Source: Chitinophagaceae bacterium (GTDB taxonomy: Bacteria; Bacteroidota; Bacteroidia; Chitinophagales; Chitinophagaceae). Taken from it: 64,000 bases of DNA. The number at the start of each line of letters is the position of its first letter. Within the stretch, counting starts at the first letter, position 1. The notes below the pieces were generated by a model. That model did no database searches. It was not told the DNA's origin and saw only the letters and a program-made list of their open reading frames with translations. This document shows positions 27,915-64,000 of this stretch, piece by piece. The translations under genes were made by a program, and so were the position numbers. The stretch lies in contig CANGBH010000006.1 of NCBI GenBank assembly GCA_947451935.1, positions 1 through 64,000 on the forward strand, read 5' to 3'.

Positions 27915-28057
27915 GATAGCCAAATGTTTATGATTTTATAAATGTAACAAAGTTGTTATGAATGAACATCTATCGAATAATAATTAAACGTTACCGTTCA
28001 TATAAAAAAGTAGAATTGAAACACGCTTAAATAGATATAATTATTAAATTTATAGTG

Positions 28058-28137
28058 ATTTTTTGTACCCGGTTGCTGCCGGAAGTCTTTGTTTTCTCAT
28101 GCTAACCCTGCTGTTTGTCTAAATAGCAGGGTTTTTT
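28058..28137 (+). ncRNA. Candidate small RNA ending in an intrinsic terminator
   Basis: A terminator, AACCCTGCT / AGCAGGGTT (28104-28112 with 28125-28133) followed by T residues, points on the plus strand. The only gene upstream runs the other way, so a short RNA must be the transcript that ends here if the hairpin is used. A possible -7 box TAAATTTA lies at 28045-28052, giving a start near 28058 and an RNA of about 80 bases with a small hairpin CCGG-N6-CCGG. No -33 at normal spacing was found. An alternative is that the hairpin insulates recA from readthrough. Confidence 0.4.
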
Positions 28138-28146
28138 GTGAAAAAC

Positions 28147-28185
28147 ACTAAATATTTTAGTGAAAAAAATACTAAAAATATTAGT
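28147..28185. promoter_or_regulatory. Two tandem palindromes ACTAA-N5-TTAGT in the recA promoter
   Basis: Site 1 (28147-28161) reads ACTAA ATATT TTAGT and extends one pair further to CACTAA...TTAGTG. Site 2 (28171-28185) reads ACTAA AAATA TTAGT. Their centres are 24 bp apart and site 2 overlaps the place of the -33 element for the -7 box at 28205. Two copies of the same 15-bp dyad next to recA are what a damage-response repressor site would look like. No LexA gene is in the window. Confidence 0.6.
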
Positions 28186-28204
28186 TTATTGATTTTTTAG
28201 CCCC

Positions 28205-28212
28205 TATCTTTA
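28205..28212 (+). promoter_or_regulatory. recA: recA promoter -7 box
   Basis: TATCTTTA, one base off TAnnTTTG, 19 bases before the recA ATG. It is the only such box between the palindromes and the gene. Confidence 0.5.
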
Positions 28213-28231
28213 TATTCTTAAAATAAATTAT

Positions 28232-29233
28232 ATGTCAAACAGTGAAAAACTAAAAGCGTTAAAACTAACACTGGATAAGATTGAGAAAGATTATGGTAAG
28301 GGTAGTGTTATGATGATGAATGAGAAAGGAGAAGCAGAAATTGAAGTGATCTCTACCGGTTCTATTGGCCTAGATTCAGCCTTAGGCATAGGAGGATTAC
28401 CTAAAGGAAGGGTAATTGAGATTTATGGTCCTGAAAGCTCTGGTAAAACAACAATAGCCATTCATGTAATTGCTGAAGCCCAGAAGAAAGGAGGAATGTG
28501 TGCAATAATTGATGCTGAACATGCCTTTGATAGCGGATACGCTAAGAAATTAGGAGTTGACGTAGACAATTTACTTATATCACAGCCAGATTATGGCGAA
28601 CAAGCACTAGAAATTGCTGACAGATTGATCCTTTCTGGTGCCCTTGACGTTGTTGTCATTGATTCTGTAGCTGCCTTGGTTCCTAAAAGTGAACTTGAAG
28701 GTGAAATGGGTGATAGCAAAATGGGACTTCATGCAAGGTTAATGAGTCAGGCGTTGAGAAAACTTACAGCAACCATCAGCAAGACGAATACGATTTGTAT
28801 TTTCATCAATCAGCTAAGGGAAAAAATTGGTATTGTTTTTGGTAACCCTGAAACAACAACAGGCGGAAATGCACTAAAATTCTACGCTTCTGTTCGATTG
28901 GATATTCGTAGAGCAGCTCAAATTAAAGATGGTGACGAAGCTATTGGAAATAGAGTAAAAGTGAAAGTGGTAAAAAATAAAGTAGCACCTCCATTCCGTT
29001 CTGCAGAATTTGATATCATTTTTGGAGAAGGAATTTCCAAAACAGGGGAAATTATTGATATGGGAGTTGAACTTGGAATAATTAATAAAAGCGGTAGCTG
29101 GTATAGTTATGGCACTGATAAACTTGGGCAAGGACGTGATGGCGTTAAACAATTAATGTTGGACAATCCAGAAATGGCCAATGAAATTGAAGGGAAAATC
29201 AGGGAAAAAATTAAAGAAATGCAGGCATCATAA
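28232..29233 (+). CDS. recA: Recombinase RecA
   Basis: A 333-residue RecA: strand exchange, recombinational repair and coprotease for self-cleaving repressors. Walker [10 protein letters not shown] at residues 66-74, the MAW-type [22 protein letters not shown], Walker [13 protein letters not shown] (near 140-151), loop L1 around [24 protein letters not shown] and L2 [36 protein letters not shown]. The C-terminus is short and lacks the long acidic tail of E. coli RecA, normal in this phylum. Transcribed from its own promoter, which carries two palindromes, and ended by a hairpin that overlaps the leader of mgsA. Confidence 0.98.
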
Positions 29234-29265: not shown

Positions 29266-29293
29266 CCGCATTCAAGCTGGATGCGGTTTTTTT
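29266..29293 (+). terminator. recA terminator
   Basis: Stem CCGCATTC / GGATGCGG (29266-29273 with 29279-29286, one G-T pair), loop AAGCT, then seven T residues. It lies between recA and mgsA, so at least part of the transcription of mgsA-uvrB must come by readthrough or from a start inside this gap. Confidence 0.85.
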
Positions 29294-35953: not shown

Positions 35954-38778
35954 TGGATAAAAGGCTTTTTTTACTCGATGCATTTGCCCTGATTTTTCGT
36001 GCTTACTATGCGCTAATTAGAAGTCCACGTATTACGAGTAAAGGTAAAAACACCAATGCCCAATTTGGCTTTACCAACGCATTGATCGACTTGCTAAATA
36101 AGCAAAAACCTAGCCATATGGCAATTTGCTTTGATACAGCTGCACCAACCGAAAGGCATACAGATTTTGCAGATTATAAAGCTAACAGACAAGAAGCGCC
36201 AGAAGACCTTATCGCTTCACTTCCTGATATAAAAAAAATTATCCAAGGATTTAATATACCAATAATCGAGACAGATGGTTTTGAAGCAGATGATGTTATT
36301 GGAACACTCGCAAAACAAGCTGAAAAAGAAGGATACCAAGTGTTCATGGTAACACCTGATAAAGACTATGGTCAACTTGTCTCTGAAAATATCAAAATAT
36401 ATAAGCCCCCATATCAAGGAGGCGACTTTGAAATTATCGGTCCAAAAGAAGTATGTGAAAAATGGAATATTGAACATGTCTCACAAGTGATTGATATCCT
36501 TGCGATGATGGGCGATGCAGTAGATAATATTCCTGGTATTCCGGGTATTGGAGAAAAAACAGCTGCAAAACTTCTAGCAGAATATGGAACAGTTGAAAAC
36601 GTTCTAGAAAATGCCAATAATATCAAAGGTTCAATGGGTGAAAAGGTTAGGCAAGGAAAAGATCTTGCTATGATGAGTAAAAAACTCGCCACCATCATCA
36701 CATCAGTTCCAGTAAACTTCCATGAAGGTGAATTTCTAGTAAAAGAAGTAAATAAAGAAGCGCTTAAAGAAATATTCAGCGAACTTGAATTTAGAACAAT
36801 TGGTAAACGAATTCTAGGTGAAGATATACCAATAGCAGGACCGGTTGAGAAACAAGGAACAACAGTACAAGGAGATTTATTTGGAGGATCAACAACTGTT
36901 GCGTCATCAAATTCAGAAATTGTAACTGAAGAAGAAAATACTGGAGATATATCTGCTGATAAAAATATAAACAATACCCCACATCAGTATGAGCTTATTG
37001 ATTCTAATGAGAAGATAGATGAATTAATTTTATCACTTCAAAATCAAAAAGAAATTTGTTTTGATACAGAAACAACTGGTCTTGATGCTAATCAAGCATC
37101 AATTGTAGGTATGAGTTTTTCAGTGAAAGAAGGAACAGCTTGTTATGTTTCATGTCCTGAAGACAAAAATGAATTAAAAAAAATACTAGATAAATTCATT
37201 CCATTGTTTAACGATTCATCCATAACCTGGATTGGACAAAATTTGAAATATGATTTACTCATATTAAAAAATCTAGGAATTGAACTAGCTGGGAATATAT
37301 TTGATACGATGCTCGCTCACTATGTCATTGAACCAGAAGGAAAGCGGAGCATGGATATATTGAGTGCAAAATACCTTGGTTATGAAACTGTAAAAATCAC
37401 AGAACTTATTGGCAAAAAGGGAAAGAACCAAGGGAATATGCGCGATGTTGAAGTAGAAAAAATAAAAGAATATGCTGGAGAAGACGCTGACATAACATTA
37501 CAGCTAAAAAATATTTTCACTCCAGAATTAAAAAGAAAGCATGTAGAAAAAATATTTAACGAAGTAGAAAGTCCACTCGTTAAAGTACTTGCTAATATGG
37601 AATTTGAAGGGGTTAGAGTAGATACTGATTTCCTTAATGAATATTCAAAAGAATTAGATAAAGAAGCAAAACTTGCAGAAGAGTCTGTTTATAAAACAGC
37701 GGGAGTTCGATTTAATCTTGCCTCACCAAAACAACTTGGTGAAGTATTGTTTGAGAAATTAATGCTTGACCCTAAAGCAAAAAAAACAAAAACAGGTCAG
37801 TATGCAACTGGAGAAGATGTATTGCAAAAACTTGCACATCAGTTTCCTATCGTTTCAGATATTCTTGCCTTCCGAGAATTAACTAAATTAAAATCAACGT
37901 ATGTTGATGCTTTGCCCTTGTTGATTAACCCGAAAACTGGACGCGTACATACAACCTATGCGCAAGCTGTAGCCGTAACAGGTAGACTATCAAGTACTAA
38001 CCCAAATCTGCAAAATATACCAGTTAGAAGCGATCGTGGTAAAGAAATAAGAAAGGCATTTATCCCTAGGGATAATGATCATGTACTGATTTCAGCAGAT
38101 TATTCTCAGATAGAATTACGTATTGTAGCAGCTATTAGTGGAGATACGAATATGTGTGAAGCTTTTAAAATGGGAAAAGATATTCATACAGCAACTGCCG
38201 CTAAAGTATATGGTGTCAATGAAGAAGATGTGACCAAAGAGATGCGGTACAAAGCTAAGAGTGTGAATTTTGGTATAATATATGGACAAGGTGCATTTGG
38301 GTTAGCAGAAAATTTAGCCATCAGCAGAACAGAAGCCAAAACCATTATCGATAATTATAAAAAAGAATTCCCTGGTATAACTCAATATATGGAATCGACT
38401 ATTCAATTTGCAAAAGACAATGGATATGTAGAAACATTGATGGGAAGAAAAAGATGGTTAAGGGATATAAAATCATCGAATTTTACAGTGCGTGGATTTG
38501 CAGAAAGAAATGCAATTAATTCTCCGATACAAGGATCAGCAGCAGACATGGTTAAACTTGCGATGATTAAAGTGCATCAGGCAATCATAAACCAAAAGCT
38601 AAAAAGTAAAATGATTTTACAAGTACATGATGAATTAATCTTCGATACGTTGAAAAGTGAAGCAGAAGAAATGAAATCACTTATTATAGAAAATATGGAG
38701 AATGCGTTACAGCTTCCTAATCATGTTCCGGTAATTGCAGAAGCGGGTATTGGAGAAAATTGGTTAGTTGCCCACTAA
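35953..38778 (+). CDS. polA: DNA polymerase I
   Basis: A 941-residue PolA with all three domains. The 5' nuclease spans residues 1-290 (LFLLDAFALIFRAYYAL, ETDGFEADDVIGTLA, DAVDNIPGIPGIGEKTAAKLL). The proofreading 3'-5' exonuclease follows at about 350-530 with its acidic residues intact (FDTETTGLDANQ, NLKYDLLIL, YAGEDADITLQL). The polymerase domain, about 560-941, has motif A SADYSQIELR, motif B KSVNFGIIYGQG and motif C QVHDELIF. The protein repairs gaps and removes Okazaki primers. A linker of about 40 residues (residues 295-340) rich in Glu, Ser and Thr separates the nuclease from the exonuclease. Transcribed from a near-leaderless promoter. Confidence 0.98.
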   Translation: MDKRLFLLDAFALIFRAYYALIRSPRITSKGKNTNAQFGFTNALIDLLNKQKPSHMAICFDTAAPTERHTDFADYKANRQEAPEDLIASLPDIKKIIQGFNIPIIETDGFEADDVIGTLAKQAEKEGYQVFMVTPDKDYGQLVSENIKIYKPPYQGGDFEIIGPKEVCEKWNIEHVSQVIDILAMMGDAVDNIPGIPGIGEKTAAKLLAEYGTVENVLENANNIKGSMGEKVRQGKDLAMMSKKLATIITSVPVNFHEGEFLVKEVNKEALKEIFSELEFRTIGKRILGEDIPIAGPVEKQGTTVQGDLFGGSTTVASSNSEIVTEEENTGDISADKNINNTPHQYELIDSNEKIDELILSLQNQKEICFDTETTGLDANQASIVGMSFSVKEGTACYVSCPEDKNELKKILDKFIPLFNDSSITWIGQNLKYDLLILKNLGIELAGNIFDTMLAHYVIEPEGKRSMDILSAKYLGYETVKITELIGKKGKNQGNMRDVEVEKIKEYAGEDADITLQLKNIFTPELKRKHVEKIFNEVESPLVKVLANMEFEGVRVDTDFLNEYSKELDKEAKLAEESVYKTAGVRFNLASPKQLGEVLFEKLMLDPKAKKTKTGQYATGEDVLQKLAHQFPIVSDILAFRELTKLKSTYVDALPLLINPKTGRVHTTYAQAVAVTGRLSSTNPNLQNIPVRSDRGKEIRKAFIPRDNDHVLISADYSQIELRIVAAISGDTNMCEAFKMGKDIHTATAAKVYGVNEEDVTKEMRYKAKSVNFGIIYGQGAFGLAENLAISRTEAKTIIDNYKKEFPGITQYMESTIQFAKDNGYVETLMGRKRWLRDIKSSNFTVRGFAERNAINSPIQGSAADMVKLAMIKVHQAIINQKLKSKMILQVHDELIFDTLKSEAEEMKSLIIENMENALQLPNHVPVIAEAGIGENWLVAH

Positions 38779-61832: not shown

Positions 61833-64000
61833 ATGAAAAATTTCTCAGTATTCCAATTAGATTATTTTGCATCAAAATCAATTGAGGAATTATCCAAATC
61901 ATTAAATTCAAATATCAGCTTAGGTCTTTCAAACATTGAAGCGGAAAGAAGAATTAAAGAAAATGGACTAAATATTATACCATTTCACAAAAATTTTCCT
62001 TGGTGGAAAGATTTGCTAAATCACTTTAAAAGTCCGCTTATTGTTATTCTATTAATTGCATCCATTATTTCGCTAACAGTTGCTGAAACATTAAATGCTA
62101 CAATCATTTTTTTAATGATTTTGGTAAGCGTTACAATTGATTTCTTTCAAGAGAGAGATGCTAGAAATGCAGCTGAAAAACTACAATTTCTTATTAAAAC
62201 AAAAGTAAATGTATTAAGGGATGGCACTATACTTGAAATAGTACATCAAAACCTATGTGTTGGAGATATCATCATGTTAAATGCAGGAAAAATAGTTCCA
62301 GCAGATGCCAGAATAATTTCATCTAATGCTTTATATATTAACCAATCATCTTTAACTGGAGAATCATTCCCATGTGAAAAGAATGCTGAAGCTGTACTCA
62401 ATTCAACAAATGACCTTAATAAGTTGACTAACATTGCTTTCATGGGCACTAATGTAATTAGTGGGGTTGCACATGCACTTATCATTAAAACAGCTGGAGA
62501 TTCTGAATTTGGAAAAATAGCTGTAGAACTAACTGAAAAGGATGAAGAAACAGACTTTGGAAAAGGAGTCAAAGAGTTTGGCTTTATGGTTATGAAATTG
62601 ACCATTGGATTAGTCTTATTTATTTTTTTAATCAACTCTTTACACAAGCAAAATATTTTAGACTCATTCATGTTTGCCATAGCAGTTGCTGTTGGTTTGA
62701 CGCCAGAATTACTCCCAATGATCATGTCACTTACAATGTCTAAAGGCTCATTGAAAATGGCAAAAAAAGGAGTAATTGTAAAAAAACTTTCGGCAATCCC
62801 AAATTTCGGAAGTATGAATATTTTATGCACAGATAAAACAGGTACACTTACTGAAGATAAAATAAAGCTGATAAAATGCATAAACACAAATGGAGAGCTA
62901 TCTGAGTCCGTTTTTTTACTAGCCTATTTAAATAGCTTATTTCAGACAGGAATAAAAAATCCACTTGATGATGCAATTATCAATGATAGGACTATTGACG
63001 TGTCATCTTTTAAAAAAATTAACGAAATACCATTTGATTTTTATAGAAAAAGAATGAGTGTCATCATTGCTGAAAATGAAAAACATACACTTATTTGTAA
63101 AGGTGCACCTGAAGAAATGATTAAATCTTGTGTAAACAATGCAGAAACAATAGAACATGGAATGGAGCAATATAAATTACTGAGTGCTGAAGGATATCGT
63201 GTTCTGGCAATTGGAACTAAAATCATTAAACAAAAAAATAGTTTTGATAAAAATGATGAACAAGAGCTTAACCTAGCAGGATTTATAGCATTTTTAGATC
63301 CCCCTAAGCAAGATGCAGATGATGTAATTAGAGAACTTTACTCCATAGGTGTTGAAGTAAAAATAATAACAGGAGACAATCATCTAGTAACCCAGAAAAT
63401 ATGCAAAGACATTAACTTACCCATTAATGGGATGATGGAAGGCTATGAAATGGATACTCTAACAGATGAAGCACTTGCTAAAAGAGTATTGAATACTACC
63501 ATATTCACACGATTTTCACCAGAACAAAAAAATAGAGTTATTCATGCCTTAAAATCTGATAATAAAGCGGTTGGATTTATGGGCGATGGTATTAATGATG
63601 CACCATCACTTAAAGCAGCAGATATTGGAATTTCAGTTAGTAGTGCTACTGATATAGCAAAAGAATCAGCAGACATTATTCTTACAGAAAAAGATCTACT
63701 CGTATTGAAAGATGGTATCCTAGAGGGCAGAAAAACATTTGGGAATACTATGAAATATATAAAAATGGGTATGAGCTCCAATTTTGGAAACATGTTTTCA
63801 GTTGCTGCTGCAACCATTTTTTTACCATTTCTTCCTATGCTTCCAGTACAAATTTTAATAAATAATTTTTTATATGATATTTCTCAAATCACTATCCCAT
63901 CAGACAATGTTGATGAAGAATATGTAAAGCTTCCGCAACGATGGAATATGAAAATGATTTATAAATTCATGTTGATATTTGGCATCACAAGCTCTGTATT
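61833..64000 (+). CDS. mgtA: Magnesium-translocating P-type ATPase, MgtA/MgtB-like, C-terminally cut by the window edge
   Basis: A plus-strand gene starting at ATG 61833 and running out of the window; about 722 codons are visible. P-type ATPase motifs: TGE in SSLTGESFP, the phosphorylation site CTDKTGTLTED, KGAPEEMI, the P-domain TGDN and GDGINDAPSLKAADIGIS. The membrane segment VGLTPELLPMIMS and the NNFLYDISQITIPSDNVD motif near residue 686 are characteristic of MgtA/MgtB magnesium importers (plasma membrane). Expected full length is about 850-900 residues. No magnesium-sensing leader (M-box-like) was recognised upstream; the upstream region has only a weak hairpin and the box TAAGTTTTG. Confidence 0.93.
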   Translation, partial: MKNFSVFQLDYFASKSIEELSKSLNSNISLGLSNIEAERRIKENGLNIIPFHKNFPWWKDLLNHFKSPLIVILLIASIISLTVAETLNATIIFLMILVSVTIDFFQERDARNAAEKLQFLIKTKVNVLRDGTILEIVHQNLCVGDIIMLNAGKIVPADARIISSNALYINQSSLTGESFPCEKNAEAVLNSTNDLNKLTNIAFMGTNVISGVAHALIIKTAGDSEFGKIAVELTEKDEETDFGKGVKEFGFMVMKLTIGLVLFIFLINSLHKQNILDSFMFAIAVAVGLTPELLPMIMSLTMSKGSLKMAKKGVIVKKLSAIPNFGSMNILCTDKTGTLTEDKIKLIKCINTNGELSESVFLLAYLNSLFQTGIKNPLDDAIINDRTIDVSSFKKINEIPFDFYRKRMSVIIAENEKHTLICKGAPEEMIKSCVNNAETIEHGMEQYKLLSAEGYRVLAIGTKIIKQKNSFDKNDEQELNLAGFIAFLDPPKQDADDVIRELYSIGVEVKIITGDNHLVTQKICKDINLPINGMMEGYEMDTLTDEALAKRVLNTTIFTRFSPEQKNRVIHALKSDNKAVGFMGDGINDAPSLKAADIGISVSSATDIAKESADIILTEKDLLVLKDGILEGRKTFGNTMKYIKMGMSSNFGNMFSVAAATIFLPFLPMLPVQILINNFLYDISQITIPSDNVDEEYVKLPQRWNMKMIYKFMLIFGITSSV

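Follow-up and report, generated by a model that had tools for sequence, protein, structure and literature searches.

A probable paired operator of a non-canonical LexA at the recA promoter of an uncultured freshwater Chitinophagaceae bacterium

A non-canonical LexA that recognizes the motif CTAA-N5-TTAG was described in Bacteroidetes, Chitinophagaceae included, in 2021 (Sanchez-Osuna et al., PMC8565304). In Pontibacter actiniarum, this regulator binds its recA promoter specifically in EMSA, binding is abolished by altering one or the other dyad or the spacer length, and the SOS genes are induced by mitomycin C (PMC8565304). The same study describes large regulons in Chitinophagaceae, reports that non-canonical LexA regulates topoisomerase IV and has an N-terminal domain resembling that of CI, remarks on regulon contraction and mentions promoters with two or more sites; its main text contains no discussion of inter-site spacing or cooperativity. 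A further point of comparison is phage lambda, in which adjacent CI dimers interact pairwise and cooperativity is required for lysogeny (PMC5880393).

The DNA analyzed here (the window) is a whole stretch of 64,000 nucleotides from a MAG of an uncultured freshwater Chitinophagaceae lineage, AT-rich and 95.9% complete. Around its recA gene, the following features were delimited:

28052 to 28139, plus strand: candidate small RNA, with a hairpin (28069-28082), an unpaired TTTGTTTTCTCATG and a terminator (28104-28139); a neighbor of the recA operators
28147 to 28161, no strand assigned: operator O1, ACTAAATATTTTAGT, core CTAA-N5-TTAG at 28148-28160
28171 to 28185, no strand assigned: operator O2, ACTAAAAATATTAGT, core at 28172-28184, 24 bp from O1, right arm in the -33 slot
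28205 to 28212, plus strand: recA -7 box, TATCTTTA, of the Bacteroidota type TAnnTTTG; TAnnTTTA is invariant in 16 genus members
28232 to 29233, plus strand: recA, 333 aa
29266 to 29293, plus strand: intrinsic terminator 3' of recA, a perfect hairpin followed by a T run, read from the sequence

O1 and O2 are perfect 15-bp palindromes of the form ACTAA-N5-TTAGT, and the initial annotation had placed both copies correctly, with centers 24 bp apart. It had also proposed that the second dyad covers the -33 position. Bacteroidota promoters have the consensus -7 TAnnTTTG with a -33 TTTG. At recA, the -7 box was defined by aligning the sequences upstream of the recA start in the 16 genus members, and its position at 28205-28212 means that the -33 slot, about 18 bp 5' of the box, is occupied by the TTAGT that makes up the right arm of O2 (28181-28185), so that the -33 proposal stands. 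Another assignment, with TATATTCT (28211-28218) as the -7 box and TTG at 28189 as the -33 element, was dropped because the box conserved in the 16 relatives is the TAnnTTTA at 28205. Downstream, the terminator at 29266-29293 separates recA from a methylglyoxal-synthase-like gene and from uvrB.

The candidate small RNA adjoins the operators as a neighbor, and no membership in the operator is claimed for it. It lies about 95 bp upstream of recA, is conserved and has its own terminator, whose hairpin shows compensatory changes; the unpaired TTTGTTTTCTCATG is conserved, and the fold z is about -5. One copy is present in 25 of 41 genus genomes, at 93-143 bp upstream of recA in the 20 genomes measured, and no match to the element was found in Rfam. 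It may represent an sRNA in its own right or a second, attenuated leader of recA.

The absence of the dyads from close relatives had been named in advance as the outcome that would speak against an operator, and it did not occur. Among the 30 genus members for which the region 5' of recA is available, 28 have both sites of the recA pair in exact form at a distance of precisely 24 bp, with variable bases in between; in the two others, one site is exact and the other, at the same 24-bp distance, is degraded. The distance between O2 and the -7 box is also constant. Outside the family, recA with an exact site was found in only two of 22 order-level relatives.

A search for Peptidase_S24 across the genome (95.9% complete) returned a single gene, on contig C99, encoding a protein of 251 aa in which a Pfam scan recognized HTH_3 and Peptidase_S24 domains. 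The promoter of this repressor gene itself holds two exact sites, 22 bp apart, in the order -33 TTTG-like element, site, -7 box TATATTGC, site, ATG. The winged-helix DNA-binding domain of LexA was absent from this sole S24 protein in the Pfam scan, which sets it apart from canonical LexA. All of 45 homologs share the Ala101-Gly102 bond together with Ser138 and Lys177. In the structure prediction (mean pLDDT 71), five helices make up the N-terminal domain, the C-terminal domain is rich in beta structure, and an additional helix is present at the C-terminus; the nearest solved structures to the model are the lambda-186 hybrid repressor, the repressor of lambda itself and the C-terminal domain of LexA. 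Directly 3' of the repressor gene, on the same strand, lies the gene for topoisomerase IV subunit B, parE (both genes in L012, 536-3333, minus strand). This gene order is kept in the 11 closest homolog loci that hold it; in more distant family homologs parE was not found adjoining the repressor, and the order is conserved at the level of the genus.

Several features that mark the CTAA group were found here: a recA operator with a 5-bp spacer, an HTH_3 plus S24 repressor, an Ala-Gly bond with a Ser-Lys dyad, and autoregulatory sites. The likeness to the published regulon covers the operator core, its spacer, recA as a target, autoregulation and the link with topoisomerase IV, and the likeness of the protein extends to the S24 repressor architecture with an HTH_3 N-terminus and an extra C-terminal helix. 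All features testable here match the Bacteroidetes non-canonical LexA SOS system. With the E. coli LexA (operator CTGT-N8-ACAG), the system shares a LexA-like C-terminal domain fold and the proposed role of an SOS repressor subject to RecA-mediated cleavage, but the operator sequence is different and the winged-helix domain is lacking. What differs from the Bacteroidetes system as published is that the genome is new and the regulon here is very small, that parE is directly downstream of the repressor in the present genus, and that a fixed pair spacing of 22-24 bp is documented, a point of difference from the main text of that study (PMC8565304). The reading of the dyads as an SOS operator at recA is supported by the published and tested motif, by conservation in relatives and by the LexA-like gene with the same sites. 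The initial annotation had also called the operator plausibly new and had known of no described consensus of the form ACTAA-N5-TTAGT; neither statement is supported, since the core CTAA-N5-TTAG has been in the literature since 2021 for Bacteroidetes, Chitinophagaceae among them. The recA operator is already known in kind, and the observation itself is correct and well supported.

The regulon in this genome may comprise little more than recA and repressor-parE. umuDC was not found, the Peptidase_S24 search giving no second S24 hit, and the one IMS-family gene, a dinB behind rimM that was checked as a target, has no exact site at its locus. Such a small regulon fits the remark on regulon contraction in PMC8565304. 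Among related genomes, two small ones of the same genus (G016, 1.8 Mb in 10 contigs, 95% complete; G022, 1.4 Mb) keep the S24 SOS repressor, and G016 also has umuDC with paired operators. No RecA-family gene was detectable in G016 or G022, reflecting either an assembly gap or a loss of RecA with the RecA-dependent repressor kept. In another genome (G020; L146, 884-1501), a paired operator stands ahead of what may be an SOS operon, made up of a short gene, which on inspection by eye alone might be 2H phosphoesterase-like, and an SplB-like gene. Different contigs of G289 bear five near-identical paired-operator sequences (CTAATATATTTAGTATTTTAGTGCTAAATATATTAG), a distribution that would suit a repeated or mobile element controlled by the SOS response.

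Twin sites were searched for as two cores separated by a gap of 1-30 bp. Within the genus, the 60 pairs listed from 35 genomes, which are related genomes and not independent observations, so that P values are given no weight, fall at 24 bp (35 pairs), 23 bp (18) and 22 bp (four), with three elsewhere, so that 57 of the 60 listed lie within 20-24 bp; the 23-bp pairs lie in front of umuD-umuC or, in a single genome, of an operon that includes an SplB-like gene. At the family level, the listing comprises 59 pairs, of which 51 are spaced by 20-24 bp, with a mode of 23. Of the promoters of 80 repressor homologs, 79 have their best pair at 21-25 bp, 48 of them at 23 bp. Pairs are found in the family at the promoters of the repressor, umuDC, recA and the splB operon, almost only at 20-24 bp (mode 23-24), and those of other families are spaced differently, by 19-20 bp or 14 bp. 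For comparison, OR3, OR2 and OR1 are annotated in the lambda record at 37951, 37974 and 37998, which gives 23 bp between OR3 and OR2 and 24 bp between OR2 and OR1. The two systems have in common a CI-like HTH, an S24 domain of the self-cleaving kind, neighboring palindromes spaced by 23 and 24 bp and operators overlapping promoter elements. They differ in that the regulator is here a chromosomal SOS regulator with an unrelated operator sequence, and in that cooperativity is shown for lambda and predicted here. The 22-24 bp pairing of SOS sites is possibly new.

Altogether, the sites, their position in the promoter, their conservation, the repressor gene with its catalytic residues, the autoregulatory sites and the spacing distribution are observed, and they are very probably best explained as a whole by O1 and O2 forming the paired operator of a non-canonical LexA, a CI-like S24 repressor for which we infer binding, cleavage and cooperativity. 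With O2 overlapping the -33 element and O1 immediately 5' of it, repressor dimers on the two sites would obstruct RNA polymerase. Upon DNA damage, RecA filaments would trigger self-cleavage of the repressor at the Ala-Gly bond, and the cleaved repressor would leave the pair, allowing recA to be induced. Through the second pair, the repressor would repress its own gene and probably also the downstream parE. At the constant spacing of 22-24 bp, neighboring dimers would touch and bind cooperatively, like those of lambda CI on OR1 and OR2.

Palindromes arising by chance in AT-rich intergenic sequence are a negligible explanation for these sites. In this AT-rich genome, the motif shows no over-representation: the exact 15-mer occurs 10 times against 23 for a reversed control pattern, and the 13-bp core 73 times against 124 for the control. 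Genome-wide enrichment was accordingly rejected as evidence, and the weight is carried entirely by position, pairing and conservation. In the window, however, an exact ACTAA-N5-TTAGT is expected by chance 0.11 times on average (shuffled window) and none of 100 shuffles reached three, and two perfect copies at one promoter with a fixed spacing conserved across the genus already refute chance. The third exact match in the window, at 62448, was rejected as an operator; it falls in the reading frame of a P-type ATPase and appears fortuitous. Twelve cores in the genome have an all-A/T 5-bp spacer: the two at recA, the two at the repressor gene, and eight others that fall within reading frames or at their ends, with none of these eight in a clear promoter. 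That the dyads serve another regulator, such as an unrelated XRE repressor, rather than the SOS response is very improbable. The inventory of HTH regulators in the genome covered the S24 type only, which leaves some room for this idea, but the motif is identical to the published SOS operator, and it recurs in the promoter of the genome's sole S24 repressor gene; relatives also carry it at umuDC and at an operon with splB.

A stronger contender accepts the pairing as real and attributes the spacing to promoter geometry, with each dimer independently blocking a different promoter element and no contact between dimers; we regard it as possible, if somewhat doubtful. The two sites of repressor promoters tightly flank the -7 box, so that the promoter could set their spacing, and the invariable O2 to -7 distance at recA points the same way. 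Yet the 22-24 bp spacing recurs with the pair wholly upstream of the -7 box (recA) and with the pair flanking it (repressor), and no single geometry fits both. This like spacing at promoters of differing geometry favors dimer-dimer contact, and adjacent repressor dimers most likely bind the 22-24 bp pairs cooperatively in the manner of CI.

With these results, an uncultured freshwater lineage is placed within the recently described Bacteroidota SOS system. The paired-operator rule of 22-24 bp is sharp and testable, and bears on whether phage-type cooperativity persists in an SOS repressor whose presumed origin is the capture of a phage repressor. We lean slightly towards the view that the Bacteroidota SOS repressor retained the phage CI mode, with cooperative binding at lambda-like pairs. 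If so, the SOS response of this family would switch steeply, in contrast to responses with independently bound LexA boxes.
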